The notes beneath the pieces are model-generated. The model saw nothing but the letters and a program-made list of their open reading frames with translations, had not been told where the DNA came from and searched no databases. A program made the translations under genes and the position numbers. A stretch of 64,000 nt of DNA from Styela clava (lineage: Eukaryota; Chordata; Ascidiacea; Stolidobranchia; Styelidae): contig NC_135254.1 in assembly GCF_964204865.1 (NCBI RefSeq), positions 2,547,001-2,611,000 on the forward strand. Reading direction: 5' to 3'. Of the stretch, positions 1-51,432 are shown in pieces; positions within the stretch are counted from its first letter, which is position 1, and each line of letters opens with the position of its first letter.

Positions 1-18
1 TAGTGAGCAAATATATAA

Positions 19-181
19 AAGGGATAGCGCGAACGCAGTCCCCACTAGCAGAAATTACACGACCGAGTTATCCACATTTGGGATAATCGCTAGGGTCAAT
101 TTAGTCTGGGTGCAATGACTAAACCTCGCCTAGGCAGAACCGCCTTTGTGATCGCGGTTGACTGCCTCGTCAGGTAAGTAT
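19..181 (-). ncRNA. U1: U1 snRNA copy 1
   Basis: RNA identical to the majority form. The upstream palindrome is broken by one base (C to A at 247), so the promoter may be weakened. 763-bp type-A unit. Confidence 0.92.
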
Positions 182-781
182 GATTTGTGACGATTGGTTA
201 CGCATCATGTATGAATGTTCTATGCTAAGTGTTGAGAAGAACTTCTAAACATTAAAAACGATATGTGCAAAAGTTGCAATTTTATTTGATTCGTCTGTGG
301 GTAACGTACAATACGATTCATTGCGTTCACTCTTTTATGTGATACATCGCGAGTTCTTTGCCATCCGATGGCAGAGTGAAGTTGAACAACTTTACAAAAA
401 ATAGCAAGGACCAGGGGGTGGCATATTAAACTATAAACAAAGAGCCGCAGCTACGATACGTACCTTAAACAGGGAATAATGATATTTCCGAATCTTGGCG
501 CTCATTCTATTGCTCAATCAATGGCAACACAATCTGAATGTGAAACTGCAAACAAGGAATCAATCTAGAGACGGTTGGATAAAGGGCTAACTTGGATAAT
601 GGCAAGGCATGTCATGGACTAATATCAATAAATAAATTAATAAATGGATTGTAAGATTGGTCATGAGAAATTTAACACACCCAAACGAGGATCAATACGG
701 CCACAACTAATGAAAGCAACGTGGCCGCTCATTGACTTAACTCGTAAGCCAACAAGATATTGGTAGTGAGCAAATATATAA

Positions 782-944
782 AAGGGATAGCGCGAACGCA
801 GTCCCCACTAGCAGAAATTACACGACCGAGTTATCCACATTTGGGATAATCGCTAGGGTCAATTTAGTCTGGGTGCAATGACTAAACCTCGCCTAGGCAG
901 AACCGCCTTTGTGATCGCGGTTGACTGCCTCGTCAGGTAAGTAT
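782..944 (-). ncRNA. U1: U1 snRNA copy 2
   Basis: Majority RNA sequence with intact upstream palindrome. 751-bp type-B unit. Confidence 0.93.
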
Positions 945-1532
945 GATTTGTGACGATTGGTTACGCATCATGAATGAATGTTCTATGCTAAGTGTTGAGA
1001 AGAACTTCTCAACATTAAAAACGATATGTGCAAAAGTTGCAATTTTAATTGATTCGTCTGTGGGTAACGTGGAATACGATTCATTGCGTTCACTCTTTTA
1101 AGTGATACATCGCGAGTTCTTTGCCATCCGATGGCAGAGTGAAGTTGAACAACTTTACAAAAAATAGCAAGGACCAGGGGGTGGTATATTAAACTATAAA
1201 CAATGAGCCGCAGCTACGATACGTACCTTAAACATGGAATAATGATATTTCCGAATCTTGGCGCTCATTCTATTGCTCAATCAATGGCAACACAATCTGA
1301 ATGTGAAACTGCAAACAAGGAATCAATCTAGAGACGGTTGGATAAAGGGATAACTTGGATAATGGCAAGGCATGTCATGGACTAATATCAATAAATGGAT
1401 TGTAAGATTGGTCATGAGAAAGATAACACACCCAAACGAGGATCAATACGGCCACAACTAATGAAAGCAACGTGGCCGCTCATTGACTTAACTCGTAAGC
1501 CAACAAGATATTGGTAGTGAGCAAATATATAA

Positions 1533-1695
1533 AAGGGATAGCGCGAACGCAGTCCCCACTAGCAGAAATTACACGACCGAGTTATCCACATTTGGGATAA
1601 TCGCTAGGGTCAATTTAGTCTGGGTGCAATGACTAAACCTCGCCTAGGCAGAACCGCCTTTGTGATCGCGGTTTACTGCCTCGTCAGGTAAGTAT
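1533..1695 (-). ncRNA. U1: U1 snRNA copy 3
   Basis: One change from the majority: GCAGUAAACC for GCAGUCAACC, in the bulge of stem-loop 1. The upstream region lost one base (762-bp unit). Confidence 0.92.
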
Positions 1696-2294
1696 GATTT
1701 GTGACGATTGGTTACGCATCATGTATGAATGTTCTAGCTAAGTGTTGAGAAGAACTTCTCAACATTAAAAACGATATGTGCAAAAGTTGCAATTTTAATT
1801 GATTCGTCTGTGGGTAACGTACAATACGATTCATTGCGTTCACTCTTTTATGTGATACATCGCGAATTCTTTGCCATCCGATGGCAGAGTGAAGTTGAAC
1901 AACTTTACAAAAAATAGCAAGGACCAGGGGGTGGAATATTAAACTATAAACAAAGAGCCGCAGCTACGATACGTACCTTAAACAGGGAATAATGATATTT
2001 CCGAATCTTGGCGCTCATTCTATTGCTCAATCAATGGCAACACAATCTGAATGTGAAACTGCAAACAAGGAATCAATCTAGAGACGGTTGGATAAAGGGC
2101 TAACTTGGATAATGGCAAGGCATGTCATGGACTAATATCAATAAATAAATTAATAAATGGATTGTAAGATTGGTCATGAGAAATTTAACACACCCAAACG
2201 AGGATCAATACGGCCACAACTAATGAAAGCAACGTGGCCGCTCATTGACTTAACTCGTAAGCCAACAAGATATTGGTAGTGAGCAAATATATAA

Positions 2295-2457
2295 AAGGGA
2301 TAGCGCGAACGCAGTCCCCACTAGCAGAAATTACACGACCGAGTTATCCACATTTGGGATAATCGCTAGGGTCAATTTAGTCTGGGTGCAATGACTAAAC
2401 CTCGCCTAGGCAGAACCGCCTTTGTGATCGCGGTTGACTGCCTCGTCAGGTAAGTAT
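2295..2457 (-). ncRNA. U1: U1 snRNA copy 4
   Basis: Majority RNA. The unit is a recombinant: type-B promoter side with the 12-bp type-A insertion in the spacer (763 bp). Confidence 0.93.
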
Positions 2458-9113: not shown

Positions 9114-9276
9114 AAGGGATAGCGCGAACGCAGTCCCCACTAGCAGAAATTACACGACCGAGTTATCCACATTTGGGATAATCGCTAGGGTCAATTTAGT
9201 CTGGGTGCAATGACTAAACCTCGCCTAGGCAGAACCGCCTTTGTGATCGCGGTTTACTGCCTCGTCAGGTAAGTAT
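9114..9276 (-). ncRNA. U1: U1 snRNA copy 13
   Basis: Shares the stem-loop 1 bulge change (GCAGUAAACC) and the 1-base promoter deletion of copy 3. Its spacer mixes type-A and type-B markers. Confidence 0.92.
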
Positions 9277-10626: not shown

Positions 10627-10789
10627 AAGGGATAGCGCGAACGCAGTCCCCACTAGCAGAAATTACACGACCGAGTTATCCACATTTGGGATAATCGCTA
10701 GGGTCAATTTAGTCTGGGTGCAATGACTAAACCTCGCCTAGGCAGAACCGCCTTTGTGATCGCGATTGACTGCCTCGTCAGGTAAGTGT
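10627..10789 (-). ncRNA. U1: U1 snRNA copy 15, altered 5' end
   Basis: The RNA starts ACACUUACCUG (U2 to C), so intron position +7 would pair with G rather than A. A stem-loop 1 C to U change leaves a G-U wobble. The next unit boundary follows a 46-bp spacer deletion (705-bp unit). Sister of copy 21. Confidence 0.9.
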
Positions 10790-23319: not shown

Positions 23320-23482
23320 AAGGGATAGCGCGAACGCAGTCCCCACTAGCAGAAATTACACGACTGAGTTATCCACATTTGGGATAATCGCTAGGGTCAA
23401 TTTAGTCTGGGTGCAATGACTAAACCTCGCCTAGGCAGAACCGCCTTTGTGATCGCGGTTGACTGCCTCGTCAGGTAAGTAT
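23320..23482 (-). ncRNA. U1: U1 snRNA copy 32, promoter spacing deletion
   Basis: ACUCAGUCG variant as in copy 27. A 19-bp deletion just upstream of the RNA start moves the palindrome from -49 to about -30, which should misplace a PSE. Confidence 0.9.
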
Positions 23483-24051: not shown

Positions 24052-24214
24052 AAGGGAAAGCGCGAACGCAGTCCCCACTAGCAGAAATTACACGACCGAG
24101 TTATCCACATTTGGGATAATCGCTAGGGTCAATTTAGTCTGGGTGCAATGACTAAACCTCGCCTAGGCAGAACCGCCTTTGTGATCGCGGTTGACTGCCT
24201 CGTCAGGTAAGTAT
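24052..24214 (-). ncRNA. U1: U1 snRNA copy 33
   Basis: Stem-loop 4 reads CGCUUUCCC, the form seen in vertebrate U1. Otherwise majority RNA. Confidence 0.92.
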
Positions 24215-27077: not shown

Positions 27078-27240
27078 AAAGGATAGCGCGAACGCAGTCC
27101 CCACTAGCAGAAATTACACGACCGAGTTATCCACATTTGGGATAATCGCTAGGGTCAATTTAGTCTGGGTGCAATGACTAAACCTCGCCTAGGCAGAACC
27201 GCCTTTGTGATCGCGGCTGACTGCCTCGTCAGGTAAGTAT
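27078..27240 (-). ncRNA. U1: U1 snRNA copy 37
   Basis: Two changes: GUCAGCC for GUCAACC in stem-loop 1, and loss of one C at the base of stem 4 (AUCCUU). Its unit is 1015 bp because of a partial duplication. Confidence 0.9.
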
Positions 27241-27734
27241 GATTTGTGACGATTGGTTACGCATCATGTATGAATGTTCTATGCTAAGTGTTGAGAAGAA
27301 CTTCTCAACATTAAAAACGATATGTGCAAAAGTTGCAATTTTAATTGATTCGTCTGTGGGTAACGTACAATACGATTCATTGCGTTCACTCTTTTATGTG
27401 ATACATCGCGAGTTCTTTGCCATCCGATGGCAGAGTGAAGTTGAACAACTTTACAAAAAATAGCAAGGACCAGGGGGTGGAATATTAAACTATAAACAAA
27501 GAGCCGCAGCTACGATACGTACCTTAAACAGGGAATAATGATATTTCCGAATCTTGGCGCTCATTCTATTGCTCAATCAATGGCAACACAATCTGAATGT
27601 GAAACTGCAAACAAGGAATCAATCTAGAGACGGTTGAATAAAGGGCTAACTTGGATAATGGCAAGGCATGTCATGGACTAATATCAATAAATAAATTAAT
27701 AAATGGATTGTAAGATTGGTCATGAGAAATTTAA

Positions 27735-27986
27735 TATTAAACTATAAACAATGAGCCGCAGCTACGATACGTACCTTAAACAGGGAATAATGATATTTCC
27801 GAATCTTGGCGCTCATTCTATTGCTCAATCAATGGCAACACAATCTGAATGTGAAACTGCAAACAAGGAATCAATCTAGAGACGGTTGGATGAAGGGCTA
27901 ACTTGGATAATGGCAAGGCATGTCATGGACTAATATCAATAAATAAATTAATAAATGGATTGTAAGATTGGTCATGAGAAATTTAA
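27735..27986. repeat. 252-bp partial unit without U1
   Basis: After GAAATTTAA at 27734 the sequence jumps back to TATTAAACTATAAAC and repeats 252 bp of spacer before continuing. A short TTAA-rich microhomology lies at the joint. No U1 gene is included, so the unit of copy 37 is 1015 bp. Confidence 0.85.
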
Positions 27987-28092
27987 CACACCCAAACGAG
28001 GATCAATACGGCCACAACTAATGAAAGCAACGTGGCCGCTCATTGACTTAACCCGTAAGCCAACAGGATATTGGTAGTGAGCAAATATATAA

Positions 28093-32773: not shown

Positions 32774-33294
32774 GATTTGTGACGATTGGTTACGCATCAT
32801 GAATGAATGTTCTATGCTAAGTGTTGAGAAGAACTTCTCAACATTAAAAACGATATGTGCAAAAGTTGCAATTTTAATTGATTCGTCTGTGGGTAACGTG
32901 GAATACGATTCATTGCGTTCACTCTTTTATGTGATACATCGCGAGTTCTTTGCCATCCGATGGCAGAGTGAAGTTGAACAACTTTACAAAAAATAGCAAG
33001 GACCAGGGGGTGGTATATTAAACTATAAACAATGAGCCGCAGCTACGATACGTACCTTAAACATGGAATAATGATATTTCCGAATCTTGGCGCTCATTCT
33101 ATTGCTCAATCAATGGCAACACAATCTGAATGTGAAACTGCAAACAAGGAATCAATCTAGAGACGGTTGGATAAAGGGATAACTTGGATAATGGCAAGGC
33201 ATGTCATGGACTAATATCAATAAATGGATTGTAAGATTGGTCATGAGAAAGATAACACACCTAAACGAGGATCAATACGGCCACAACTAATGAA

Positions 33295-33383
33295 ATGGAC
33301 TAATATCAATAAATGGATTGTAAGATTGGTCATGAGAAAGATAACACACCTAAACGAGGATCAATACGGCCACAACTAATGAA
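33295..33383. repeat. 89-bp tandem duplication inside a spacer
   Basis: The spacer stretch from TGGACTAATATC to CTAATGAAA occurs twice in a row, making the unit 840 bp. The same duplication is in the second block near 41644-41732. Confidence 0.8.
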
Positions 33384-33450
33384 AGCAACGTGGCCGCTCA
33401 TTGACTTAACTCGTAAGCCAACAAGATATTGGTAGTGAGCAAATATATAA

Positions 33451-33613
33451 AAGGGATAGCGCGAACGCAGTCCCCACTAGCAGAAATTACACGACCGAGT
33501 TATCCACATTCGGGATAATCGCTAGGGTCAATTTAGTCTGGGTGCAATGACTAAACCTCGCCTAGGCAGAACCGCCTTTGTGATCGCGGTTGACTGCCTC
33601 GTCAGGTAAGTAT
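33451..33613 (-). ncRNA. U1: U1 snRNA copy 45, divergent promoter
   Basis: Loop 3 is the CCCGAA form; loop 1 is CACAAAG. The promoter belongs to the divergent family (AGGAAGAAGTTCTCAACAA, palindrome lost): a gene/promoter chimera. Confidence 0.9.
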
Positions 33614-34209
33614 GATTTGTGACGATTGGTTACGCATCATGAATGAATGTTCTATGCTAAGGAAGAAGTTCTCAACAATAAAAACGATTTGTGCAAAAGC
33701 TGCAATTTTAATTGATTCGTCTGTCAGTAACGTAGAATATGATTCATTGCGTTCAAATCTTTTATGTTGATACATCGCGAGTTCTTTGCCATCCGATGGC
33801 AGAATGAAGCTGAACAACTTTACAAGAAATAGCAAGAACCAGGGGTTGAAATATTAAACTATAAACAAAGAGCCACAGCTCCGATACGTACCTTAAACGG
33901 AGAATAATGATATTTCCGAATCTTGGCGCTCATTCTATTGCTCAATCAATGGCAACACAATCTGAATGTGAAACTGCAAACAAGGAATCAATCTAGAGAC
34001 GGTTGGATAAAGGGCTAACTTGGATAATGGCAAGACATGTCATGGACTAATATCAATAAATAAATTAATAAATGGATTGTAAGATTGGTCATGAGAAATT
34101 TAACACACCCAAACGAGGATCAATACGGCCACAACTAATGAAAGCAACGTGGCCGCTCATTGACTTAACCCGTAAGCCAACAGGATATTGGTAGTGAGCA
34201 AATATATAA

Positions 34210-34372
34210 AAGGGATAGCGCGAACGCAGTCCCCTCTAGCAGAAATTACACGACCGAGTTATCCACATTTGGGATAATCGCTAGGGTCATTTTAGTCTGG
34301 GTGCAATGACTAAACCTCGCCTAGGCAGAACCGCCTTTGTGATCGCGGTTGACTGCCTCGTCAGGTAAGTAT
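34210..34372 (-). ncRNA. U1: U1 snRNA copy 46
   Basis: Two changes: CUAGAGGGG before stem 4, and AAAAUGACC for AAAUUGACC after stem-loop 2. Confidence 0.91.
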
Positions 34373-34960
34373 GATTTGTGACGATTGGTTACGCATCATG
34401 AATGAATGTTCTATGCTAAGTGTTGAGAAGAACTTCTCAACATTAAAAACGATATGTGCAAAAGTTGCAATTTTAATTGATTCGTCTGTGGGTAACGTGG
34501 AATACGATTCATTGCGTTCACTCTTTTATGTGATACATCGCGAGTTCTTTGCCATCCGATGGCAGAGTGAAGTTGAACAACTTTACAAAAAATAGCAAGG
34601 ACCAGGGGGTGGTATATTAAACTATAAACAATGAGCCGCAGCTACGATACGTACCTTAAACATGGAATAATGATATTTCCGAATCTTGGCGCTCATTCTA
34701 TTGCTCAATCAATGGCAACACAATCTGAATGTGAAACTGCAAACAAGGAATCAATCTAGAGACGGTTGGATAAAGGGATAACTTGGATAATGGCAAGGCA
34801 TGTCATGGACTAATATCAATAAATGGATTGTAAGATTGGTCATGAGAAAGATAACACACCTAAACGAGGATCAATACGGCCACAACTAATGAAAGCAACG
34901 TGGCCGCTCATTGACTTAACTCGTAAGCCAACAAGATATTGGTAGTGAGCAAATATATAA

Positions 34961-35123
34961 AAGGGATAGCGCGAACGCAGTCCCCACTAGCAGAAATTAC
35001 ACGACCGAGTTATCCACATTCGGGATAATCGCTAGGGTCAATTTAGTCTGGGTGCAATGACTAAACCTCGCCTAGGCAGAACCGCCTTTGTGATCGCGGT
35101 TGACTGCCTCGTCAGGTAAGTAT
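34961..35123 (-). ncRNA. U1: U1 snRNA copy 47
   Basis: CCCGAA loop 3 variant, intact palindrome. Confidence 0.92.
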
Positions 35124-35722
35124 GATTTGTGACGATTGGTTACGCATCATGAATGAATGTTCTATGCTAAGTGTTGAGAAGAACTTCTCAACATTAAAAA
35201 CGATATGTGCAAAAGTTGCAATTTTAATTGATTCGTCTGTGGGTAACGTGGAATACGATTCATTGCGTTCACTCTTTTATGTGATACATCGTGAGTTCTT
35301 TGCCATCCGATGGCAGAGTGAAGTTGAACAACTTTACAAAAAATAGCAGGACCAGGGGGTGGAATATTAAACTATAAACAAAGAGCCGCAGCTACGATAC
35401 GTACCTTAAACAGGGAATAATGATATTTCCGAATCTTGGCGCTCATTCTATTGCTCAATCAATGGCAACACAATCTGAATGTGAAACTGCAAACAAAGAA
35501 TCAATCTAGAGACGGTTGGATAAAGGGCTAACTTGGATAATGGCAAGGCATGTCATGGACTAATATCAATAAATAAATTAATAAATAGATTGTAAGATTG
35601 GTCATGAGAAATTTAACACACCCAAACGAGGATCAATACGGCCACAACTAATGAAAGCAACGTGGCCGCTCATTGACTTAACCCGTAAGCCAACAGGATA
35701 TTGGTAGTGAGCAAATATATAA

Positions 35723-35885
35723 AAGGGATAGCGCGAACGCAGTCTCCACTAGCAGAAATTACACGACCGAGTTATCCACATTTGGGATAATCGCTAGGGT
35801 CAATTTAGTCTGGGTGCAATGACTAAACCTCGCCTAGGCAGAACCGCCTTTGTGATCGCGGTTGACTGCCTCGTCAGGTAAGTAT
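35723..35885 (-). ncRNA. U1: U1 snRNA copy 48
   Basis: Stem 4 has GUGGAGACUG for GUGGGGACUG, losing one G-C pair. Confidence 0.91.
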
Positions 35886-36472
35886 GATTTGTGACGATTG
35901 GTTACGCATCATGAATGAATGTTCTATGCTAAGTGTTGAGAAGAACTTCTCAACATTAAAAACGATATGTGCAAAAGTTGCAATTTTAATTGATTCGTCT
36001 GTGGGTAACATGGAATACGATTCATTGCGTTCACTCTTTATGTGATACATCGCGAGTTCTTTGCCATCCGATGGCAGAGTGAAGTTGAACAACTTTACAA
36101 AAAATAGCAAGGACCAGGGGGTGGAATATTAAACTATAAACAATGAGCCGCAGCTACGATACGTACCTTAAACATGGAATAATGATATTTCCGAATCTTG
36201 GCGCTCATTCTATTGCTCAATCAATGGCAACACAATCTGAATGTGAAACTGCAAACAAGGAATCAATCTAGAGACGGTTGGATAAAGGGATAACTTGGAT
36301 AATGGCAAGGCATGTCATGGACTAATATCAATAAATGGATTGTAAGATTGGTCATGAGAAAGATAACACACCCAAACGAGGATCAATACGGCCACAACTA
36401 ATGAAAGCAACGTGGCCGCTCATTGACTTAACTCGTAAGCCAACAAGATATTGGTAGTGAGCAAATATATAA

Positions 36473-36635
36473 AAGGGATAGCGCGAACGCAGTCCCCACT
36501 AGCAGAAATTACACGACCGAGTTATCCACATTTGGGATAATCGCTAGGGTCAATTTAGTCTGGGTGCAATGACTAAACCTCGCCTAGGCAGAACCGCCTT
36601 TGTGATCGCGGTTGACTGCCTCGTCAGGTAAGTAT
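36473..36635 (-). ncRNA. U1: U1 snRNA copy 49
   Basis: Majority RNA, 762-bp unit to the next copy. Confidence 0.93.
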
Positions 36636-37234
36636 GATTTGTGACGATTGGTTACGCATCATGAATGAATGTTCTATGCTAAGTGTTGAGAAGAACTTCT
36701 CAACATTAAAAACGATATGTGCAAAAGTTGCAATTTTAATTGATTCGTCTGTGGGTAACGTGGAATACGATTCATTGCGTTCACTCTGTTATGTGATACA
36801 TCGCGAGTTCTTTGCCATCCGATTTCAGAGTGAAGTTGAACAACTTTACAAAAAATAGCAGGACCAGGGGGTGGAATATTAAACTATAAACAAAGAGCCG
36901 CAGCTACGATACGTACCTTAAACAGGGAATAATGATATTTCCGAATCTTGGCGCTCATTCTATTGCTCAATCAATGGCAACACAATCTGAATGTGAAACT
37001 GCAAACAAGGAATCAATCTAGAGACGGTTGGATAAAGGGCTAACTTGGATAATGGCAAGGCATGTCATGGACTAATATCAATAAATAAATTAATAAATAG
37101 ATTGTAAGATTGGTCATGAGAAATTTAACACACCCAAACGAGGATCAATACGGCCACAACTAATGAAAGCAACGTGGCCGCTCATTGACTTAACCCGTAA
37201 GCCAACAGGATATTGGTAGTGAGCAAATATATAA

Positions 37235-37397
37235 AAGGGATAGCGCGAACGCAGTCCCCACTAGCAGAAATTACACGACCGAGTTATCCACATTAGGGAT
37301 AATCGCTAGGGTCAATTTAGTCTGGGTGCAATGACTAAACCTCGCCTAGGCAGAACCGCCTTTGTGATCGCGGTTGACTGCCTCGTCAGGTAAGTAT
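37235..37397 (-). ncRNA. U1: U1 snRNA copy 50
   Basis: Loop 3 is CCCUAAUGUGG, a third loop-3 allele. Confidence 0.92.
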
Positions 37398-37985
37398 GAT
37401 TTGTGACGATTGGTTACGCATCATGAATGAATGTTCTATGCTAAGTGTTGAGAAGAACTTCTCAACATTAAAAACGATATGTGCAAAAGTTGCAATTTTA
37501 ATTGATTCGTCTGTGGGTAACGTGGAATACGATTCATTGCGTTCACTCTTTTATGTGATACATCGCGAGTTCTTTGCCATCCGATGGCAGAGTGAAGTTG
37601 AACAACTTTACAAAAAATAGCAAGGACCAGGGGGTGGAATATTAAACTATAAACAAAGAGCCGCAGCTACGATACGTACCTTAAACAGGGAATAATGATA
37701 TTTCCGAATCTTGGCGCTCATTCTATTGCTCAATCAATGGCAACACAATCTGAATATGAAACTGCAAACAAGGAATCAATCTAGAGACGGTTGGATAAAG
37801 GGATAATTTGGATAATGGCAAGGCATGTCATGGAATAATATCAAAAAATGGATTGTAAGATTGGTCATGAGAAATATAACATACCCAAACGAGGATCAAT
37901 ACGGCAACATTTAATGAAAGCAACGTGGCCGCTCATTGACCTAACTCGTAAGCCAACAGGATATTGGTAGTGAGCAAATATATAA

Positions 37986-38148
37986 AAGGAATAGCGCGAA
38001 CGCAGTACCCACTAGCAGAAATTACACGACCGAGTTATTCACATTTGGGACAATTGCTAGGGTCAATTTAGTCTGGGTGCAATGACTAAACCTCGCCTAG
38101 GCAAAACCGGCTTCGTGATCGCGGTTGACTGCCTCGTCAGGTAAGTAT
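37986..38148 (-). ncRNA. U1: U1 snRNA copy 51, divergent, canonical loop 1
   Basis: Loop 1 is the conserved GAUCACGAAG, but its 3' stem reads CCGG and mismatches one pair. Further changes are in stem-loop 3 (CAAUUGUCCC, GUGAAUAAC) and stem 4 (GGGUACUG, AUUCC). The promoter is of the divergent family. Possibly a pseudogene. Confidence 0.8.
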
Positions 38149-38744
38149 GATTTGTGACGATTGTTTGCGCATCATGAATGAATGTTCTATGCTAAGGAAG
38201 AAGTTCTCAACAATAAAAACGATTTGTGCAAAAGTTGCAATTTTAATTGATTCGTCTGTCAGTAACGTAGAATATGATTCATTGCGTTCAAATCTTTTAT
38301 GTTGATACATCGCGAGTTCTTTGCCATCCGATGGCAGAATGAAGCTGAACAACTTTACAAGAAATAGCAAGAACCAGGGGTTGAAATATTAAACTATAAA
38401 CAAAGAGCCACAGCTCCGATACGTACCTTAAACGGAGAATAATGATATTTCCGAATCTTGGCGCTCATTCTATTGCTCAATCAATGGCAACACAATCTGA
38501 ATGTGAAACTGCAAACAAGGAATCAATCTAGAGACGGTTGGATAAAGGGCTAACTTGGATAATGGCAAGGCATGTCATGGACTAATATCAATAAATAAAT
38601 TAATAAATGGATTGTAAGATTGGTCATGAGAAATTTAACACACCCAAACGAGGATCAATACGGCCACAACTAATGAAAGCAACGTGGCCGCTCATTGACT
38701 TAACCCGTAAGCCAACAGGATATTGGTAGTGAGCAAATATATAA

Positions 38745-38907
38745 AAGGGATAGCGCGAACGCAGTCCCCACTAGCAGAAATTACACGACCGAGTTATCCA
38801 CATTTGGGATAATCGCTAGGGTCAATTTAGTCTGGGTGCAATGACTAAACCTCGCCTAGGCAGAACCGCCTTTGTGATCGCGGTTGACTGCCTCGTCAGG
38901 TAAGTAT
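38745..38907 (-). ncRNA. U1: U1 snRNA copy 52
   Basis: Majority RNA, intact palindrome. Confidence 0.93.
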
Positions 38908-39495
38908 GATTTGTGACGATTGGTTACGCATCATGAATGAATGTTCTATGCTAAGTGTTGAGAAGAACTTCTCAACATTAAAAACGATATGTGCAAAAGT
39001 TGCAATTTTAATTGATTCGTCTGTGGGTAACGTGGAATACGATTCATTGCGTTCACTCTTTTATGTGATACATCGCGAGTTCTTTGCCATCCGATGGCAG
39101 AGTGAAGTTGAACAACTTTACAAAAAATAGCAAGGACCAGGGGGTGGTATATTAAACTATAAACAATGAGCCGCAGCTACGATACGTACCTTAAACATGG
39201 AATAATGATATTTCCGAATCTTGGCGCTCATTCTATTGCTCAATCAATGGCAACACAATCTCAATGTGAAACTGCAAACAAGGAATCAATCTAGAGACGG
39301 TTGGATAAAGGGATAACTTGGATAATGGCAAGGCATGTCATGGACTAATATCAATAAATGGATTGTAAGATTGGTCATGAGAAAGATAACACACCTAAAC
39401 GAGGATCAATACGGCCACAACTAATGAAAGCAACGTGGCCGCTCATTGACTTAACTCGTAAGCCAACAAGATATTGGTAGTGAGCAAATATATAA

Positions 39496-39658
39496 AAGGG
39501 ATAGCGCGAACGCAGTCCCCACTAGCAGAAATTACACGACCGAGTTATCCACATTCGGGATAATCGCTAGGGTCAATTTAGTCTGGGTGCAATGACTAAA
39601 CCTCGCCTAGGCAGAACCGCCTTTGTGATCGCGGTTGACTGCCTCGTCAGGTAAGTAT
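39496..39658 (-). ncRNA. U1: U1 snRNA copy 53
   Basis: CCCGAA loop 3 variant. The following spacer is shortened (719 bp to the next copy) and switches to the divergent family at about 40088. Confidence 0.92.
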
Positions 39659-40214
39659 GATTTGTGACGATTGGTTACGCATCATGAATGAATGTTCTAT
39701 GCTAAGTGTTGAGAAGAACTTCTCAACATTAAAAACGATATGTGCAAAAGTTGCAATTTTAATTGATTCGTCTGTGGGTAACGTGGAATACGATTCATTG
39801 CGTTCACTCTTTTATGTGATACATCGCGAGTTCTTTGCCATCCGATGGCAGAGTGAAGTTGAACAACTTTACAAAAAATAGCAGGACCAGGGGGTGGAAT
39901 ATTAAACTATAAACAAAGAGCCGCAGCTACGATACGTACCTTAAACAGGGAATAACGATATTTCCGAATCTTGGCGCTCATTCTATTGCTCAATCAATGG
40001 CAACACAATCTGAATGTGAAACTGCAAACAAGGAATCAATCTAGAGACGGTTGGATAAAGGGCTAACTTGGATAATGGCAAGGCATGAATATAACATACA
40101 TACTCTAACAATAACCCCGACGGCCACAACTAATGGAGCCATACGAAAATAGCGTGGCCGCTCATTGACCTAACTCGTATGCCAACAGGATATTAATAAG
40201 GAGCAAATACACAA

Positions 40215-40377
40215 AAGGGAGAGCGCGAACGCAGTCCCAACTAGCAGAAATTACACGACCGAGTTATCCACATTTGGGATAATCGCTAGGGTCAATTTAG
40301 TCTGGGTGCAATGACTAAACCTCGCCAAGGCAGAACCGGCTTCGTGATCGCGGTTGACTGCCTCGTCAGGTAAGTAT
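40215..40377 (-). ncRNA. U1: U1 snRNA copy 54, divergent, canonical loop 1
   Basis: Loop 1 is GAUCACGAAG with CCGG on the 3' stem. Other changes: CCUUGGCGAGG, GUUGGGACUG and CGCUCUCCC. Divergent promoter. Confidence 0.82.
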
Positions 40378-40959
40378 GATTTGTGACGATTGTTTGCGCA
40401 TCATGAATGAATGTTCTATGCTAAGGAAGAAGTTCTCAACAATAAAACGATATGTGCAAAAGTTGCAATTTTAATTGATTCGTCTGTCAGTAACGTAGAA
40501 TACGATTCATTGCGTTCAAATCTTTTATGTGATACATCGCGAGTTCTTTGCCATCCGATGGCAGATTGAAGCTGAACAACTTTACAAGAAATAGCAAGGA
40601 CCAGGGGTTGAAATATTAAACTATAAACAAAGAGCCGCAGCTCCGATACGTACCTTAAACGGAGAATAATGATATTTCCGAATCTTGGCGCTCATTCTAT
40701 TGCTCAATCAATGGCAACACAATCTGAATGTGAAACTGCAAATAAGGAATTAATCTAGAGACGGTTGTATAAAGGGATAATTTGGATAATGGCAAGGCAT
40801 GTCATGGAATAATATCAAAAAATGGATTGTAAGATTGGTCATGAGAAATATAACATACCCAAACGAGGATCAATACGGCAACATTTAATGAAAGCAACGT
40901 GGCCGCTCATTGACCTAACTCGTAAGCCAACAGGATATTGGTAATGAGCAAATTTATAA

Positions 40960-41122: not shown

Positions 41123-41799
41123 AGTTTGTGACGATTGGTTACGCATCATGAATGAATGTTCTATGCTAAGTGTTGAGAAGAACTTCTCAACATTAAAAAC
41201 GATATGTGCAAAAGTTGCAATTTTAATTGATTCGTCTGTGGGTAACGTGGAATACGATTCATTGCGTTCACTCTTTTATGTGATACATCGCGAGTTCTTT
41301 GCCATCCGATGGCAGAGTGAAGTTGAACAACTTTACAAAAAATAGCAAGGACCAGGGGGTGGTATATTAAACTATAAACAATGAGCCGCAGCTACGATAC
41401 GTACCTTAAACATGGAATAATGATATTTCCGAATCTTGGCGCTCATTCTATTGCTCAATCAATGGCAACACAATCTGAATGTGAAACTGCAAACAAGGAA
41501 TCAATCTAGAGACGGTTGGATAAAGGGATAACTTGGATAATGGCAAGGCATGTCATGGACTAATATCAATAAATGGATTGTAAGATTGGTCATGAGAAAG
41601 ATAACACACCTAAACGAGGATCAATACGGCCACAACTAATGAAATGGACTAATATCAATAAATGGATTGTAAGATTGGTCATGAGAAAGATAACACACCT
41701 AAACGAGGATCAATACGGCCACAACTAATGAAAGCAACGTGGCCGCTCATTGACTTAACTCGTAAGCCAACAAGATATTGGTAGTGAGCAAATATATAA

Positions 41800-41962
41800 A
41801 AGGGATAGCGCGAACGCAGTCCCCACTAGCAGAAATTACACGACCGAGTTATCCACATTCGGGATAATCGCTAGGGTCAATTTAGTCTGGGTGCAATGAC
41901 TAAACCTCGCCTAGGCAGAACCGCCTTTGTGATCGCGGTTGACTGCCTCGTCAGGTAAGTAT
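41800..41962 (-). ncRNA. U1: U1 snRNA copy 56
   Basis: Duplicate of copy 45 (offset 8349): CCCGAA loop 3 with the divergent promoter. Confidence 0.9.
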
Positions 41963-42558
41963 GATTTGTGACGATTGGTTACGCATCATGAATGAATGTT
42001 CTATGCTAAGGAAGAAGTTCTCAACAATAAAAACGATTTGTGCAAAAGCTGCAATTTTAATTGATTCGTCTGTCAGTAACGTAGAATATGATTCATTGCG
42101 TTCAAATCTTTTATGTTGATACATCGCGAGTTCTTTGCCATCCGATGGCAGAATGAAGCTGAACAACTTTACAAGAAATAGCAAGAACCAGGGGTTGAAA
42201 TATTAAACTATAAACAAAGAGCCACAGCTCCGATACGTACCTTAAACGGAGAATAATGATATTTCCGAATCTTGGCGCTCATTCTATTGCTCAATCAATG
42301 GCAACACAATCTGAATGTGAAACTGCAAACAAGGAATCAATCTAGAGACGGTTGGATAAAGGGCTAACTTGGATAATGGCAAGACATGTCATGGACTAAT
42401 ATCAATAAATAAATTAATAAATGGATTGTAAGATTGGTCATGAGAAATTTAACACACCCAAACGAGGATCAATACGGCCACAACTAATGAAAGCAACGTG
42501 GCCGCTCATTGACTTAACCCGTAAGCCAACAGGATATTGGTAGTGAGCAAATATATAA

Positions 42559-42721
42559 AAGGGATAGCGCGAACGCAGTCCCCTCTAGCAGAAATTACAC
42601 GACCGAGTTATCCACATTTGGGATAATCGCTAGGGTCATTTTAGTCTGGGTGCAATGACTAAACCTCGCCTAGGCAGAACCGCCTTTGTGATCGCGGTTG
42701 ACTGCCTCGTCAGGTAAGTAT
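42559..42721 (-). ncRNA. U1: U1 snRNA copy 57
   Basis: Duplicate of copy 46, with the same two changes. Confidence 0.91.
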
Positions 42722-43309
42722 GATTTGTGACGATTGGTTACGCATCATGAATGAATGTTCTATGCTAAGTGTTGAGAAGAACTTCTCAACATTAAAAACG
42801 ATATGTGCAAAAGTTGCAATTTTAATTGATTCGTCTGTGGGTAACGTGGAATACGATTCATTGCGTTCACTCTTTTATGTGATACATCGCGAGTTCTTTG
42901 CCATCCGATGGCAGAGTGAAGTTGAACAACTTTACAAAAAATAGCAAGGACCAGGGGGTGGTATATTAAACTATAAACAATGAGCCGCAGCTACGATACG
43001 TACCTTAAACATGGAATAATGATATTTCCGAATCTTGGCGCTCATTCTATTGCTCAATCAATGGCAACACAATCTGAATGTGAAACTGCAAACAAGGAAT
43101 CAATCTAGAGACGGTTGGATAAAGGGATAACTTGGATAATGGCAAGGCATGTCATGGACTAATATCAATAAATGGATTGTAAGATTGGTCATGAGAAAGA
43201 TAACACACCTAAACGAGGATCAATACGGCCACAACTAATGAAAGCAACGTGGCCGCTCATTGACTTAACTCGTAAGCCAACAAGATATTGGTAGTGAGCA
43301 AATATATAA

Positions 43310-43472
43310 AAGGGATAGCGCGAACGCAGTCCCCACTAGCAGAAATTACACGACCGAGTTATCCACATTCGGGATAATCGCTAGGGTCAATTTAGTCTGG
43401 GTGCAATGACTAAACCTCGCCTAGGCAGAACCGCCTTTGTGATCGCGGTTGACTGCCTCGTCAGGTAAGTAT
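43310..43472 (-). ncRNA. U1: U1 snRNA copy 58
   Basis: Duplicate of copy 47. Confidence 0.92.
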
Positions 43473-44071
43473 GATTTGTGACGATTGGTTACGCATCATG
43501 AATGAATGTTCTATGCTAAGTGTTGAGAAGAACTTCTCAACATTAAAAACGATATGTGCAAAAGTTGCAATTTTAATTGATTCGTCTGTGGGTAACGTGG
43601 AATACGATTCATTGCGTTCACTCTTTTATGTGATACATCGTGAGTTCTTTGCCATCCGATGGCAGAGTGAAGTTGAACAACTTTACAAAAAATAGCAGGA
43701 CCAGGGGGTGGAATATTAAACTATAAACAAAGAGCCGCAGCTACGATACGTACCTTAAACAGGGAATAATGATATTTCCGAATCTTGGCGCTCATTCTAT
43801 TGCTCAATCAATGGCAACACAATCTGAATGTGAAACTGCAAACAAAGAATCAATCTAGAGACGGTTGGATAAAGGGCTAACTTGGATAATGGCAAGGCAT
43901 GTCATGGACTAATATCAATAAATAAATTAATAAATAGATTGTAAGATTGGTCATGAGAAATTTAACACACCCAAACGAGGATCAATACGGCCACAACTAA
44001 TGAAAGCAACGTGGCCGCTCATTGACTTAACCCGTAAGCCAACAGGATATTGGTAGTGAGCAAATATATAA

Positions 44072-44234
44072 AAGGGATAGCGCGAACGCAGTCTCCACTA
44101 GCAGAAATTACACGACCGAGTTATCCACATTTGGGATAATCGCTAGGGTCAATTTAGTCTGGGTGCAATGACTAAACCTCGCCTAGGCAGAACCGCCTTT
44201 GTGATCGCGGTTGACTGCCTCGTCAGGTAAGTAT
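44072..44234 (-). ncRNA. U1: U1 snRNA copy 59
   Basis: Duplicate of copy 48, with the same stem-4 change. Confidence 0.91.
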
Positions 44235-44821
44235 GATTTGTGACGATTGGTTACGCATCATGAATGAATGTTCTATGCTAAGTGTTGAGAAGAACTTCTC
44301 AACATTAAAAACGATATGTGCAAAAGTTGCAATTTTAATTGATTCGTCTGTGGGTAACATGGAATACGATTCATTGCGTTCACTCTTTATGTGATACATC
44401 GCGAGTTCTTTGCCATCCGATGGCAGAGTGAAGTTGAACAACTTTACAAAAAATAGCAAGGACCAGGGGGTGGAATATTAAACTATAAACAATGAGCCGC
44501 AGCTACGATACGTACCTTAAACATGGAATAATGATATTTCCGAATCTTGGCGCTCATTCTATTGCTCAATCAATGGCAACACAATCTGAATGTGAAACTG
44601 CAAACAAGGAATCAATCTAGAGACGGTTGGATAAAGGGATAACTTGGATAATGGCAAGGCATGTCATGGACTAATATCAATAAATGGATTGTAAGATTGG
44701 TCATGAGAAAGATAACACACCCAAACGAGGATCAATACGGCCACAACTAATGAAAGCAACGTGGCCGCTCATTGACTTAACTCGTAAGCCAACAAGATAT
44801 TGGTAGTGAGCAAATATATAA

Positions 44822-44984
44822 AAGGGATAGCGCGAACGCAGTCCCCACTAGCAGAAATTACACGACCGAGTTATCCACATTTGGGATAATCGCTAGGGTC
44901 AATTTAGTCTGGGTGCAATGACTAAACCTCGCCTAGGCAGAACCGCCTTTGTGATCGCGGTTGACTGCCTCGTCAGGTAAGTAT
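44822..44984 (-). ncRNA. U1: U1 snRNA copy 60
   Basis: Duplicate of copy 49, majority RNA. Confidence 0.93.
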
Positions 44985-45583
44985 GATTTGTGACGATTGG
45001 TTACGCATCATGAATGAATGTTCTATGCTAAGTGTTGAGAAGAACTTCTCAACATTAAAAACGATATGTGCAAAAGTTGCAATTTTAATTGATTCGTCTG
45101 TGGGTAACGTGGAATACGATTCATTGCGTTCACTCTGTTATGTGATACATCGCGAGTTCTTTGCCATCCGATTTCAGAGTGAAGTTGAACAACTTTACAA
45201 AAAATAGCAGGACCAGGGGGTGGAATATTAAACTATAAACAAAGAGCCGCAGCTACGATACGTACCTTAAACAGGGAATAATGATATTTCCGAATCTTGG
45301 CGCTCATTCTATTGCTCAATCAATGGCAACACAATCTGAATGTGAAACTGCAAACAAGGAATCAATCTAGAGACGGTTGGATAAAGGGCTAACTTGGATA
45401 ATGGCAAGGCATGTCATGGACTAATATCAATAAATAAATTAATAAATAGATTGTAAGATTGGTCATGAGAAATTTAACACACCCAAACGAGGATCAATAC
45501 GGCCACAACTAATGAAAGCAACGTGGCCGCTCATTGACTTAACCCGTAAGCCAACAGGATATTGGTAGTGAGCAAATATATAA

Positions 45584-45746
45584 AAGGGATAGCGCGAACG
45601 CAGTCCCCACTAGCAGAAATTACACGACCGAGTTATCCACATTAGGGATAATCGCTAGGGTCAATTTAGTCTGGGTGCAATGACTAAACCTCGCCTAGGC
45701 AGAACCGCCTTTGTGATCGCGGTTGACTGCCTCGTCAGGTAAGTAT
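45584..45746 (-). ncRNA. U1: U1 snRNA copy 61
   Basis: Duplicate of copy 50, CCCUAA loop 3. Confidence 0.92.
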
Positions 45747-46334
45747 GATTTGTGACGATTGGTTACGCATCATGAATGAATGTTCTATGCTAAGTGTTGA
45801 GAAGAACTTCTCAACATTAAAAACGATATGTGCAAAAGTTGCAATTTTAATTGATTCGTCTGTGGGTAACGTGGAATACGATTCATTGCGTTCACTCTTT
45901 TATGTGATACATCGCGAGTTCTTTGCCATCCGATGGCAGAGTGAAGTTGAACAACTTTACAAAAAATAGCAAGGACCAGGGGGTGGAATATTAAACTATA
46001 AACAAAGAGCCGCAGCTACGATACGTACCTTAAACAGGGAATAATGATATTTCCGAATCTTGGCGCTCATTCTATTGCTCAATCAATGGCAACACAATCT
46101 GAATATGAAACTGCAAACAAGGAATCAATCTAGAGACGGTTGGATAAAGGGATAATTTGGATAATGGCAAGGCATGTCATGGAATAATATCAAAAAATGG
46201 ATTGTAAGATTGGTCATGAGAAATATAACATACCCAAACGAGGATCAATACGGCAACATTTAATGAAAGCAACGTGGCCGCTCATTGACCTAACTCGTAA
46301 GCCAACAGGATATTGGTAGTGAGCAAATATATAA

Positions 46335-46497
46335 AAGGAATAGCGCGAACGCAGTACCCACTAGCAGAAATTACACGACCGAGTTATTCACATTTGGGAC
46401 AATTGCTAGGGTCAATTTAGTCTGGGTGCAATGACTAAACCTCGCCTAGGCAAAACCGGCTTCGTGATCGCGGTTGACTGCCTCGTCAGGTAAGTAT
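46335..46497 (-). ncRNA. U1: U1 snRNA copy 62, divergent, canonical loop 1
   Basis: Duplicate of copy 51, with the same substitutions. Confidence 0.8.
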
Positions 46498-47093
46498 GAT
46501 TTGTGACGATTGTTTGCGCATCATGAATGAATGTTCTATGCTAAGGAAGAAGTTCTCAACAATAAAAACGATTTGTGCAAAAGTTGCAATTTTAATTGAT
46601 TCGTCTGTCAGTAACGTAGAATATGATTCATTGCGTTCAAATCTTTTATGTTGATACATCGCGAGTTCTTTGCCATCCGATGGCAGAATGAAGCTGAACA
46701 ACTTTACAAGAAATAGCAAGAACCAGGGGTTGAAATATTAAACTATAAACAAAGAGCCACAGCTCCGATACGTACCTTAAACGGAGAATAATGATATTTC
46801 CGAATCTTGGCGCTCATTCTATTGCTCAATCAATGGCAACACAATCTGAATGTGAAACTGCAAACAAGGAATCAATCTAGAGACGGTTGGATAAAGGGCT
46901 AACTTGGATAATGGCAAGGCATGTCATGGACTAATATCAATAAATAAATTAATAAATGGATTGTAAGATTGGTCATGAGAAATTTAACACACCCAAACGA
47001 GGATCAATACGGCCACAACTAATGAAAGCAACGTGGCCGCTCATTGACTTAACCCGTAAGCCAACAGGATATTGGTAGTGAGCAAATATATAA

Positions 47094-47256
47094 AAGGGAT
47101 AGCGCGAACGCAGTCCCCACTAGCAGAAATTACACGACCGAGTTATCCACATTTGGGATAATCGCTAGGGTCAATTTAGTCTGGGTGCAATGACTAAACC
47201 TCGCCTAGGCAGAACCGCCTTTGTGATCGCGGTTGACTGCCTCGTCAGGTAAGTAT
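47094..47256 (-). ncRNA. U1: U1 snRNA copy 63
   Basis: Duplicate of copy 52, majority RNA. Confidence 0.93.
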
Positions 47257-47844
47257 GATTTGTGACGATTGGTTACGCATCATGAATGAATGTTCTATGC
47301 TAAGTGTTGAGAAGAACTTCTCAACATTAAAAACGATATGTGCAAAAGTTGCAATTTTAATTGATTCGTCTGTGGGTAACGTGGAATACGATTCATTGCG
47401 TTCACTCTTTTATGTGATACATCGCGAGTTCTTTGCCATCCGATGGCAGAGTGAAGTTGAACAACTTTACAAAAAATAGCAAGGACCAGGGGGTGGTATA
47501 TTAAACTATAAACAATGAGCCGCAGCTACGATACGTACCTTAAACATGGAATAATGATATTTCCGAATCTTGGCGCTCATTCTATTGCTCAATCAATGGC
47601 AACACAATCTCAATGTGAAACTGCAAACAAGGAATCAATCTAGAGACGGTTGGATAAAGGGATAACTTGGATAATGGCAAGGCATGTCATGGACTAATAT
47701 CAATAAATGGATTGTAAGATTGGTCATGAGAAAGATAACACACCTAAACGAGGATCAATACGGCCACAACTAATGAAAGCAACGTGGCCGCTCATTGACT
47801 TAACTCGTAAGCCAACAAGATATTGGTAGTGAGCAAATATATAA

Positions 47845-48007
47845 AAGGGATAGCGCGAACGCAGTCCCCACTAGCAGAAATTACACGACCGAGTTATCCA
47901 CATTCGGGATAATCGCTAGGGTCAATTTAGTCTGGGTGCAATGACTAAACCTCGCCTAGGCAGAACCGCCTTTGTGATCGCGGTTGACTGCCTCGTCAGG
48001 TAAGTAT
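47845..48007 (-). ncRNA. U1: U1 snRNA copy 64
   Basis: Duplicate of copy 53, CCCGAA loop 3. Confidence 0.92.
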
Positions 48008-48563
48008 GATTTGTGACGATTGGTTACGCATCATGAATGAATGTTCTATGCTAAGTGTTGAGAAGAACTTCTCAACATTAAAAACGATATGTGCAAAAGT
48101 TGCAATTTTAATTGATTCGTCTGTGGGTAACGTGGAATACGATTCATTGCGTTCACTCTTTTATGTGATACATCGCGAGTTCTTTGCCATCCGATGGCAG
48201 AGTGAAGTTGAACAACTTTACAAAAAATAGCAGGACCAGGGGGTGGAATATTAAACTATAAACAAAGAGCCGCAGCTACGATACGTACCTTAAACAGGGA
48301 ATAACGATATTTCCGAATCTTGGCGCTCATTCTATTGCTCAATCAATGGCAACACAATCTGAATGTGAAACTGCAAACAAGGAATCAATCTAGAGACGGT
48401 TGGATAAAGGGCTAACTTGGATAATGGCAAGGCATGAATATAACATACATACTCTAACAATAACCCCGACGGCCACAACTAATGGAGCCATACGAAAATA
48501 GCGTGGCCGCTCATTGACCTAACTCGTATGCCAACAGGATATTAATAAGGAGCAAATACACAA

Positions 48564-48726
48564 AAGGGAGAGCGCGAACGCAGTCCCAACTAGCAGAAAT
48601 TACACGACCGAGTTATCCACATTTGGGATAATCGCTAGGGTCAATTTAGTCTGGGTGCAATGACTAAACCTCGCCAAGGCAGAACCGGCTTCGTGATCGC
48701 GGTTGACTGCCTCGTCAGGTAAGTAT
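48564..48726 (-). ncRNA. U1: U1 snRNA copy 65, divergent, canonical loop 1
   Basis: Duplicate of copy 54. Its unit holds the one difference I noticed between the two 8349-bp blocks (48915 A, 40566 T), outside the RNA. Confidence 0.82.
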
Positions 48727-49308
48727 GATTTGTGACGATTGTTTGCGCATCATGAATGAATGTTCTATGCTAAGGAAGAAGTTCTCAACAATAAAACGAT
48801 ATGTGCAAAAGTTGCAATTTTAATTGATTCGTCTGTCAGTAACGTAGAATACGATTCATTGCGTTCAAATCTTTTATGTGATACATCGCGAGTTCTTTGC
48901 CATCCGATGGCAGAATGAAGCTGAACAACTTTACAAGAAATAGCAAGGACCAGGGGTTGAAATATTAAACTATAAACAAAGAGCCGCAGCTCCGATACGT
49001 ACCTTAAACGGAGAATAATGATATTTCCGAATCTTGGCGCTCATTCTATTGCTCAATCAATGGCAACACAATCTGAATGTGAAACTGCAAATAAGGAATT
49101 AATCTAGAGACGGTTGTATAAAGGGATAATTTGGATAATGGCAAGGCATGTCATGGAATAATATCAAAAAATGGATTGTAAGATTGGTCATGAGAAATAT
49201 AACATACCCAAACGAGGATCAATACGGCAACATTTAATGAAAGCAACGTGGCCGCTCATTGACCTAACTCGTAAGCCAACAGGATATTGGTAATGAGCAA
49301 ATTTATAA

Positions 49309-49471
49309 AAGGGATAGCGCGAACGCAGTCCCCACTAGCAGAAATTACACGACCGAGTTATCCACATTTGGGATAATCGCTAGGGTCAATTCAGTCTGGG
49401 TGCAATGACTAAACCTCGCCTAGGCAGAAGCGCCTTCGTGATAACGGTTGACTGCCCCGTCAGGTAAGTAT
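49309..49471 (-). ncRNA. U1: U1 snRNA copy 66, canonical loop 1
   Basis: RNA equal to copy 55, but here the promoter stays divergent: TGTTGAGA and TCTCAACA arms remain, separated by a longer spacer (TAGAAGT). Confidence 0.82.
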
Positions 49472-50027
49472 AGTTTGTGACGATTGATTGCGCATCATGA
49501 ATGAATGTTCTATGCTAAATGTTGAGATAGAAGTTCTCAACAATAAAAACGATATTTGCAAAAGTTGCAATTTTAATTGATTCGTTTGTCAGTAACGTAG
49601 AATACGATTTCTTGAGTTCAGATATTTTATGTGATAGATCGCGAGTTCTTTGCCATCTAATGGCAGAATGAAGCCGAACAACTTTAAAAGAAATAGCAAA
49701 GAGCCAGGGTTTGAAATATTAAACTATAAACAAAGAGCCACAGCCCCAATACGTACCTTGGACAGCAAATAATGATACTTCCAAATTTTGGCGCTCATCC
49801 TATTGCACAATCAATGGCAACACAATCTGAATGTGGAACTACAAATATGGAATCAATCTAGATACGGTTGGATAAAGGGACAGCTTAGATAATGGCAAGG
49901 CATGAATATAACATACTCTAACAATAATCCCGACGGCCACAACTAATGGAGCCATACGAAAATAGCGTGGCCGCTCATTGACCTAACTCGTATGCCAACA
50001 GGATATTAATAAGGAGCAAATACACAA

Positions 50028-50190
50028 AAGGGAGAGCGCGAACGCAGTCCCCACTAGCAGAAATTAAACGACCGAGTTATCCACATTTGGGATAATCGCT
50101 AGGGTCAATTTAGTCTGGGTGCAATGACTAAACCTCGCCTAGGCAGAACCGGCTTCGTGATCGCGGTTGACTGCCCCGTCAGGTAAGTAT
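50028..50190 (-). ncRNA. U1: U1 snRNA copy 67, divergent, canonical loop 1
   Basis: Loop 1 GAUCACGAAG with CCGG 3' stem, CGCUCUCCC in stem 4, and GUUUAAUUUCUG before the Sm site. The promoter has an extra ~30 bp (773 bp to the next copy). Confidence 0.8.
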
Positions 50191-50800
50191 GATTTGTGAC
50201 GATTGTTTGTGCAATATGAATGAATGTTCTATGCTAAGGAAGAAGTTCTCAACAAATAAAAACGAAATTTGCAAAAGTACGATAAGAACGATATGTGCAA
50301 AAGTTGCAATTTTAATTGATTCGTCTGTCAGTAACGTAGAATACGATTCATTGCGTTCAAATCTTTTATGTGATACATCGCGAGTTCTTTGCCATCCGAT
50401 GGCAGAATGAAGCTGAACAACTTTACGAGAAATAGCAAGGACCAGGGGTTGAAATATTAAACTATAAACAAAGAGCCGCAGCTCCGATACGTACCTTAAA
50501 CGGAGAATAATGATATTTCCGAATCTTGGCGCTCATTCTATTGTTCAATCAATGGCAACACAATCTGAATGTGAAACTGCAAATAATGAATCAATCTAGA
50601 TACGGTTGGATAAAGGGATAATTTGGATAATGGCAAGGCATGTCATGGAATAATATCAAAAAATGGATTGTAAGATTGGTCATGAGAAATATAACATACC
50701 CAAACGAGGATCAATACGGCAACATTTAATGAAAGCAACGTGGCCGCTCATTGACCTAACTCGTAAGCCAACAGGATATTGGAAGTGAGCAAATATATAA

Positions 50801-50963
50801 AAATGATAGCGCGAACGCAGTCCCCACTAGCAGAAATTACACGACCGAGTTATCCACATTTGGGATAATCGCTAGGGTCAATTCAGTCTGGGTGCAATGA
50901 CTAAACCTCGCCTAGGCAGAACCGCCTTCGTGATCGCGGTTGACTGCCCCGTCAGGTAAGTAT
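50801..50963 (-). ncRNA. U1: U1 snRNA copy 68, last copy, canonical stem-loop 1
   Basis: The only copy with both the conserved loop GAUCACGAAG and a fully paired CCGC/GCGG stem. The Sm site and loop 2 are intact. The 3' side of stem 4 is damaged (CGCUAUCAUUU), so the 3' end is weak. It may keep the ancestral form of the array at its decaying edge. Confidence 0.85.
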
Positions 50964-51432
50964 GGTTTGTGACGATTGATTGCGCACCATGAATGAATGT
51001 TCTATGCTAAGGAAGGAGTTCTCAACAATAAAAACGATATTTGCAAAAGTTCCAATTTTAATTGATTCGTTTGTCAGTAACGTAGAATACGATTTCTTGA
51101 GTTCAGATATTTTATGTGATACATCGCGAGTTCTTTGCCATCTAATGGCAGAATGAAGCCGAACAACTTTACGAGAAATAGCAAAGAGCCAGGGTTTGAA
51201 ATATTAAACTATAAACAAAGAGCCACAGCCCCAATACGTACCTTGAACAGCAAATAATGATATTTCCAAATTTTGGCGCTCATTCTTTTGCACAATCAAT
51301 GGCAACACAATCTGAATGTGGAACTACAAATATGGAATCAATCTAGATACGGTTGGATAAAGGGACAGCTTGGATAATGGCAAGGCATGAATATAACATA
51401 CTCTAACAATAATCCCGACGGCTTCTGTCTAA

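Follow-up and report, generated by a model that had tools for sequence, protein, structure and literature searches.

The U1 array and its extent

The window considered here, 64,000 nucleotides from the ascidian Styela clava (contig NC_135254.1, hereafter C5, positions 2547001-2611000), is filled for most of its length by a tandem array of genes for the small nuclear RNA (snRNA) U1. A scan of the window with Rfam (cmscan) returned 68 matches above the gathering score, all to the U1 family RF00003 and all on the minus strand, exactly the outcome that a first-pass annotation of the letters had predicted for such a search. None of the matches is a fragment: each of the 68 covers model positions 1-166, with scores of 122.7-144.3 bits against a gathering cut-off of 69.5. 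The genes span positions 19-50963, and the array (1..51422, minus strand) is built of units spaced mostly at 751 or 763 bp, apart from irregular ones of 705-1015 bp. Its right end had been placed at 51419, which is accurate to a few bases because other units can be aligned as far as about 51422. The same scan found no 5S and no family besides U1 in the window, a tRNA search of the window found none, and scans of its first 1600 bases for bacterial-type promoters and terminators showed no excess. Tandem Repeats Finder, for which the longest period is 500, did not report the array.

The array runs on past the left edge of the window, as had been anticipated. In the contiguous 134 kb at C5:2477001-2611000, BLAST found 162 U1 matches, all on the minus strand, of which 158 were full length by our cut; the other four comprise three that are unaligned over nt 1-5 and one 32-nt piece. 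The leftmost array U1 found (locus L028) has its 5' end at C5:2378604, with unit homology beginning about 270 bp further left, and among the matches listed exact ones follow each other with hardly a gap between 2378.5 kb and about 2450-2451 kb. The array, whose right end lies in the window, occupies about C5:2,378-2,598 kb, of which the parts up to about 2451 kb and from 2477 kb were read; if unbroken, it is estimated at about 220 kb with about 290 U1 copies, roughly four times longer than the window's part. C5 carries further U1 copies, in both orientations, in the interval 2.73-4.66 Mb. Searches of the whole genome (376.6 Mb, 379 contigs) with two patterns for the array-class U1 gave 854 matches with up to two mismatches for one (427 on each strand) and 863 with up to three for the other (433 and 430).

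Anatomy and conservation of the array U1

The array U1 gene is 163 nt long and carries a 5' splice-site sequence, four stem-loops and an Sm site. The 5' end complementary to 5' splice sites (AUACUUACCUG) has 66 exact occurrences for the 68 window genes, and the corresponding 11-nt search sequence ATACTTACCTG is found 66 times on the minus strand and never on the plus strand of the window; nt 1-11 are intact in 147 of the 158 genes of the 134-kb stretch. The Sm site AAUUUCUG likewise occurs 67 times for the 68 window genes (Sm-like AATTTCTG: 67 on the minus strand, none on the plus) and in 144 of the 158, with C131A behind 13 of the departures. The U1A site AUUGCAC of stem-loop II is present in 157 of the 158 genes, and all reference pairs are kept in 121. 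The commonest U1 folds better than its dinucleotide shuffles (z −2.46), one of 200 of which did as well.

Stem-loop I is the part in which the first-pass description has to be amended: the genes are full-length, as it had said, but the first stem-loop is not canonical, since loop I reads AUCACAAAG in 60 of the 68 window genes and AUCACGAAG in only 8. The U1-70K loop AUCANGAAG is matched by the latter 8. Across the 134 kb the two forms are found in 113 and 30 of the 158 genes, with four further forms in the other 15, while other sampled arrays on C5 have AUCACGAAG or AUCACGUAG among other forms. In our own alignment the changed base corresponds to human G34, and in the human structure loop 3 of U1-70K wraps around the stacked bases C33 and G34 (PMC4383343). 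The purine-for-purine change may be tolerated.

The mean proportion of non-consensus letters over 161 units is 1.1% in U1, 2.9% from −400 to −60, 2.2% from −40 to 0 and 4.0% downstream. When one window unit (that of the gene at 782..944) was compared with units from four other places on C5 (L005, L007, L008 and L023), 12 of 652 sites differed in U1 (1.8%) and 209 of 2291 in the spacer (9.1%), about five-fold less in U1; Fisher's test gave p values of 0.042 to 1.7e-6 for single comparisons and 2.9e-12 when pooled, the four comparisons sharing one reference unit. In a covariation set of 36 U1 sequences, 34 of them distinct, 93.7% of cells were paired, compared with 93.1% for shuffles and 28-47% when the structure was slid, and 11 cells showed a two-sided change versus 1.8 in shuffles.

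A dispersed class of U1 genes

A pattern for an alternative stem II located a second class of U1 at eight genome places, four on C10, two on C1 and one each on C18 and C2. The eight matches consist of six ordinary genes of 164 nt, one divergent gene and one truncated gene. Between the dispersed U1 genes and the commonest array sequence (type A) there are differences at 13-16 of 157 aligned positions. L002-L004, L006 and L022 carry two-sided changes in three stem-II pairs, and L001 in two; no reference pair is broken, save one in L022. The two classes agree in their 5' end, U1A loop and Sm site; loop I of the dispersed genes is AUCACGCAG or one of its relatives.

The divergent gene (L035, C1:1683900-1684400) has the 5' end ATACTTACTTGG, with a change inside the stretch that pairs with the splice site, and its ACCACA promoter box, at −57, is intact; it is a candidate variant U1. 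The truncated match (L036, C1:24263350-24263850) is a dispersed-class U1 without its 5' part, lying between two direct copies of AAAATAGTCAAGACTGCC, a layout such as retroposition might leave. On C10, dispersed U1 and U4 genes lie within the same half megabase (7.31-7.81 Mb).

Promoters of the two classes

Upstream of the array genes, the core TTAGCATAGAACATTCAT at −47 to −30 shows no variation in 17 of 18 columns across 161 units, and three gaps in the remaining one. In the window it stands exactly at −47 in 65 of the 68 units (at 211..228, minus strand, for the first gene), at −28 in one (gene 23320..23482), and carries a 1-base deletion in two, namely the unit of the gene at 1533..1695, whose U1 has C22A, and the unit at 9114. 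The ordinary dispersed U1 promoters contain TTAGCATA in five of six cases and TTAACATA in the sixth; at the position of the array core they read TTAGCATAAACG in five of six and TTAACATAAACG in L004, with CACCACAA before it. Promoters of U1 and U2 share, at −57 to −59, a block resembling the proximal sequence element (PSE). At −58, arrayed U1 and U2 still agree in part with a dispersed-U1 block, at 15-16 of 21 positions, and the match of arrayed U5 to that block is no better than in shuffles. Downstream of U1, 26 nt are identical in 54 of the 68 window genes; inspection of these 26 nt by eye revealed no match to the vertebrate 3' box consensus.

The two sets also differ in a promoter box, ACCAYA, counted as ACCA[CT]A at −68 to −50 with the truncated C1 U1 left out. 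It is present near −58 in 18 of the 20 dispersed U1, U2, U4 and U5 genes examined and in none of 93 arrayed U1, U2 and U5 genes; by chance it appears in 7 of 1000 control windows of flank DNA. The dispersed genes with the box are the six ordinary U1 genes and the divergent C1 copy, four of four U2 genes and a low-scoring U2 copy on C10, four of four U5 genes and two of two U4 genes on C10, while two U2-like copies on C16 are without it. The arrayed genes that do not have it are the 68 U1 genes of the window, 12 U1 genes elsewhere, nine U2 and four U5 genes; the U4 array on C4 has it in three of three. Judged by this box, the two U1 classes have different predicted promoters. The U1 genes of the array look functional because of the lower divergence of U1 than of spacer, the compensated pairs of stem II and the promoter core at −47.

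Variation and repeats within the array

The window holds 51 distinct units among its 68 and 19 distinct U1 sequences. Thirty of the genes are identical (type A), and are represented by the gene at 19..181, as well as by that at 782..944. The top-scoring gene (144.3 bits) is at 24052..24214, and the most divergent one (122.7 bits, 8 substitutions relative to type A) at 37986..38148, with an identical copy at 46335. The gene at 10627..10789 combines T2C in the 5' end with C25T, likewise found at 15094. One unit of 1015 bp (27078..28092) contains a U1 at 27078-27240 and a duplicated 252-bp spacer stretch at 27481-27986. At the right edge, the genes at 50028..50190 (137.6 bits) and 50801..50963 (134.2 bits) both have G35 in loop I, and the spacer upstream of the last gene (50964..51422) continues until unit homology stops. 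All of these lie on the minus strand, as does an exact repeat of 7790 bp, whose copies at 32776..40565 and 41125..48914 are offset by 8349 and share nine identical whole units (u45-u53 equalling u56-u64).

Such a repeat raises two other explanations. Part of the array's length could be an assembly artefact made of falsely repeated blocks, as an exact 7790-bp repeat within the window might suggest; 51 of the 68 units are distinct, however, the units to the right of the two repeat copies (u54 and u65) differ, and hundreds of copies are found in both orientations at separate places on C5, which makes the explanation highly improbable. Alternatively, the array could be satellite DNA that happens to carry U1, amplified by unequal exchange and mostly silent. 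Homogenised units, block duplications and the long exact repeat are what satellite DNA would offer, as are the many U1 variants with broken pairs or altered 5' ends, and the copy number greatly exceeds the 2-46 reported for U1 in moths and in Xenopus assemblies (PMC8190105, PMC10361878). Against this stand the roughly five-fold lower divergence of U1 than of spacer between arrays, the near-invariant promoter core and an isoform set apart from the dispersed one through compensated changes, and we judge the satellite explanation improbable.

Other spliceosomal snRNAs

All five major snRNAs are clustered in this genome, and a distinct array isoform is found only for U1 and U2. The genome searches scored only the best candidates, so that the counts for U2, U4, U5 and U6 are lower bounds. 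For U2, 39 of 46 scored matches lie at C6:17.53-17.79 Mb with a period of 1169 bp, with four on C10, one on C3 and two on C16; a pattern for the array-type U2 gave 228 plus 2 matches in the genome. The array-type U2, of about 230 genes (L029-L031, C6), has stems III-IV far from those of dispersed U2 and a near-identical 5' half, in a comparison of nine array genes with four dispersed ones. Its loop UUGCAC was considered as a U1A-type site and dropped, the Rfam U2 consensus itself having UUgCAcU. For U5, 42 of 46 scored matches are at C13:6.27-6.47 Mb, three on C1 and one on C6, with overlapping scores between the classes, and for U6, 47 of 48 are at C1:19.46-19.60 Mb, with one on C4. U4 is divided between C4 (31 of 42 scored matches, nearly all at 20.09-20.16 Mb) and C10 (11 of 42, ten of them at 7.36-7.43 Mb beside dispersed U1 genes), with no clear score split between the two.

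In another proposal dosage is the whole explanation: arrayed and dispersed genes would feed one U1 pool for all cells without division of labour. The 5' end, U1A loop and Sm site that the two U1 classes share fit this proposal, and so do the U4 copies of C4 and C10, whose scores overlap and which have the promoter box in common. Yet stem II and the length at the 3' end (163 versus 164 nt) are distinct between the U1 classes, the promoter box separates the classes for U1, U2 and U5, and the dual sets known in other animals are stage-specific (PMC4291461, PMC11075544). We consider a pure dosage effect rather unlikely.

Flanking and distant features

Just to the right of the array, a short frame (52077-52493, plus strand) encodes a protein similar to that of a transposase stretch at 61427-62413 (minus strand); the former has no Pfam match, and the latter belongs to the DDE_Tnp_1_7 family (2.1e-35), which we take to be of piggyBac type. 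An imperfect minisatellite with a 16-bp unit of the GTGCAAATGT type occupies 57709-57798 and 58937-59379. The frame at 63401-63781 (minus strand) has no Pfam match above cut-off and resembles the C-terminus of a non-LTR retrotransposon. To the left of the array, L028 (C5:2371001-2379000) contains a frame with a sub-threshold match to OTU protease (E 0.002) along with other long frames, and is possibly a mobile element.

Elsewhere in the genome, C5:1-3000 reads N, the right ends of C5, C2 and C10 are filled by a satellite of 55-bp type, and repeats of the telomeric TTAGGG type stand at the start of C10. An insect origin, which the U1 of Drosophila had brought to mind, was dropped on account of TTAGGG-type repeats at a contig start. 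A search for COX1 found none, and one for the GFP family, a weak test of a cnidarian or amphioxus origin, gave no match, which does not establish absence. On C9, stretches encoding cellulose synthase (L052:1233-2054; PF13632 1.9e-16, PF03552 8.6e-07) and GH6 (L051:1495-1776; PF01341 9.9e-11) lie on the same strand a few kb apart and would form one gene; to our knowledge the CesA-GH6 fusion is specific to tunicates among animals, and the locus thus favours a tunicate source.

A model for the array

The locus is a tandem array of real U1 genes, and we regard it as quite probable that it provides the bulk U1 supply from a promoter class of its own, leaving other tissues to dispersed genes. Each unit would be an autonomous snRNA gene, consisting of a PSE-like element at about −58 to −30, the 163-nt U1 and a spacer that holds the next promoter, and the array is one of several on C5, with a U1 isoform unlike that of the handful of dispersed genes. 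The copies would be kept alike by unequal exchange, to which the block duplications and the divergent edge units point, and the U1 part would be kept by selection. We infer that the array U1 is transcribed by RNA polymerase II with a SNAPc-type factor, and that it is made in bulk, probably at a stage of high demand such as the oocyte or the early embryo; other tissues would be served by the dispersed U1 genes.

Several observations weigh against this model. At least one reference pair is broken in 37 of the 158 genes, 11 of the 158 have an altered 5' end, and three more U1 matches were excluded as unaligned over nt 1-5; therefore part of the array may be dead, and some copies probably are. The U1-70K loop is altered in most copies. 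The pairs with two-sided change number only 3, a figure equalled by 110 of 500 shuffles, and pair types are fewer than in all shuffles; the structural support is real but comes from one split between the U1 classes. Nor is the box contrast absolute, given that the U4 array has the box and the two C16 U2-like copies do not, and the count of 0 in 93 comes from arrayed genes that are not independent of one another.

The model could be carried further. The arrays of U1, U2, U4, U5 and U6 on five contigs, with their own isoforms of at least U1 and U2 and with ACCAYA-less promoters, may constitute a second snRNA set whose members are switched together, in eggs, embryos or the germ line, to yield an alternative spliceosome. 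Its U1 would then be distinct in stem II and the U1-70K loop, and its U2 in stems III-IV. We offer this extension tentatively, as a possibility with somewhat less than an even chance.

Comparison with known systems and implications

Both tandem arrangements and dual sets of snRNA genes have been described before. The embryonic U1 sets of Xenopus and sea urchin are tandem arrays. Xenopus has different U1 isoforms in oocytes or embryos and in adults, and the sea urchin isoforms are developmentally regulated (PMC4291461). Genes for multiple U1 isoforms are found here too. The Xenopus assemblies are said to hold 20-46 U1 copies (about 20 in X. tropicalis, 11 plus about 35 in X. laevis; PMC10361878), in contrast to the 854-863 array-class matches of S. 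clava, and moth genomes have 2-31 by quantitative PCR (PMC8190105); the U1 number of this genome is therefore at the high end of those compared. The maternal snRNA set of zebrafish lies on chromosome 4, its copies forming one heterochromatic block with other genes, whereas here each snRNA is clustered on a separate contig. The snRNA clusters used as chromosome markers in fish, crustaceans, coral and oyster are tandem likewise. Tandem snRNA genes are linked with 5S rDNA in some animals (PMC8167085), unlike the window, in which U1 stands without 5S.

Among tunicates, the larvacean Fritillaria borealis is reported to have two versions of U1 whose 5' ends are identical (PMC13326754), as are those of the array and dispersed classes described here; the available portion of that paper contains nothing on tandem U1 arrays, and the phrase 'U1 snRNA genes' is absent from it. 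A search of the openly readable literature, itself covered in part, for tandem U1 arrays and dual snRNA sets found no report of a tunicate U1 array. The architecture of a dual set, in which one isoform is arrayed in tandem and another is encoded by genes elsewhere, is found here for U1, and by analogy the layout resembles that with which frogs, sea urchins and zebrafish supply eggs and embryos.

It has been proposed that dual snRNA sets equip the embryo with its own spliceosome, but the known cases are hard to dissect. In S. clava several fixed bases distinguish the two U1 classes, and for U1, U2 and U5 the arrayed genes are set apart from the dispersed ones by a box at a constant position. 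The contiguous array is also material on how unequal exchange would homogenise hundreds of copies while leaving divergent ones at the edge. Ascidian embryos, which are fast and well mapped, would offer a favourable setting for the question of whether a dual set serves the embryo.

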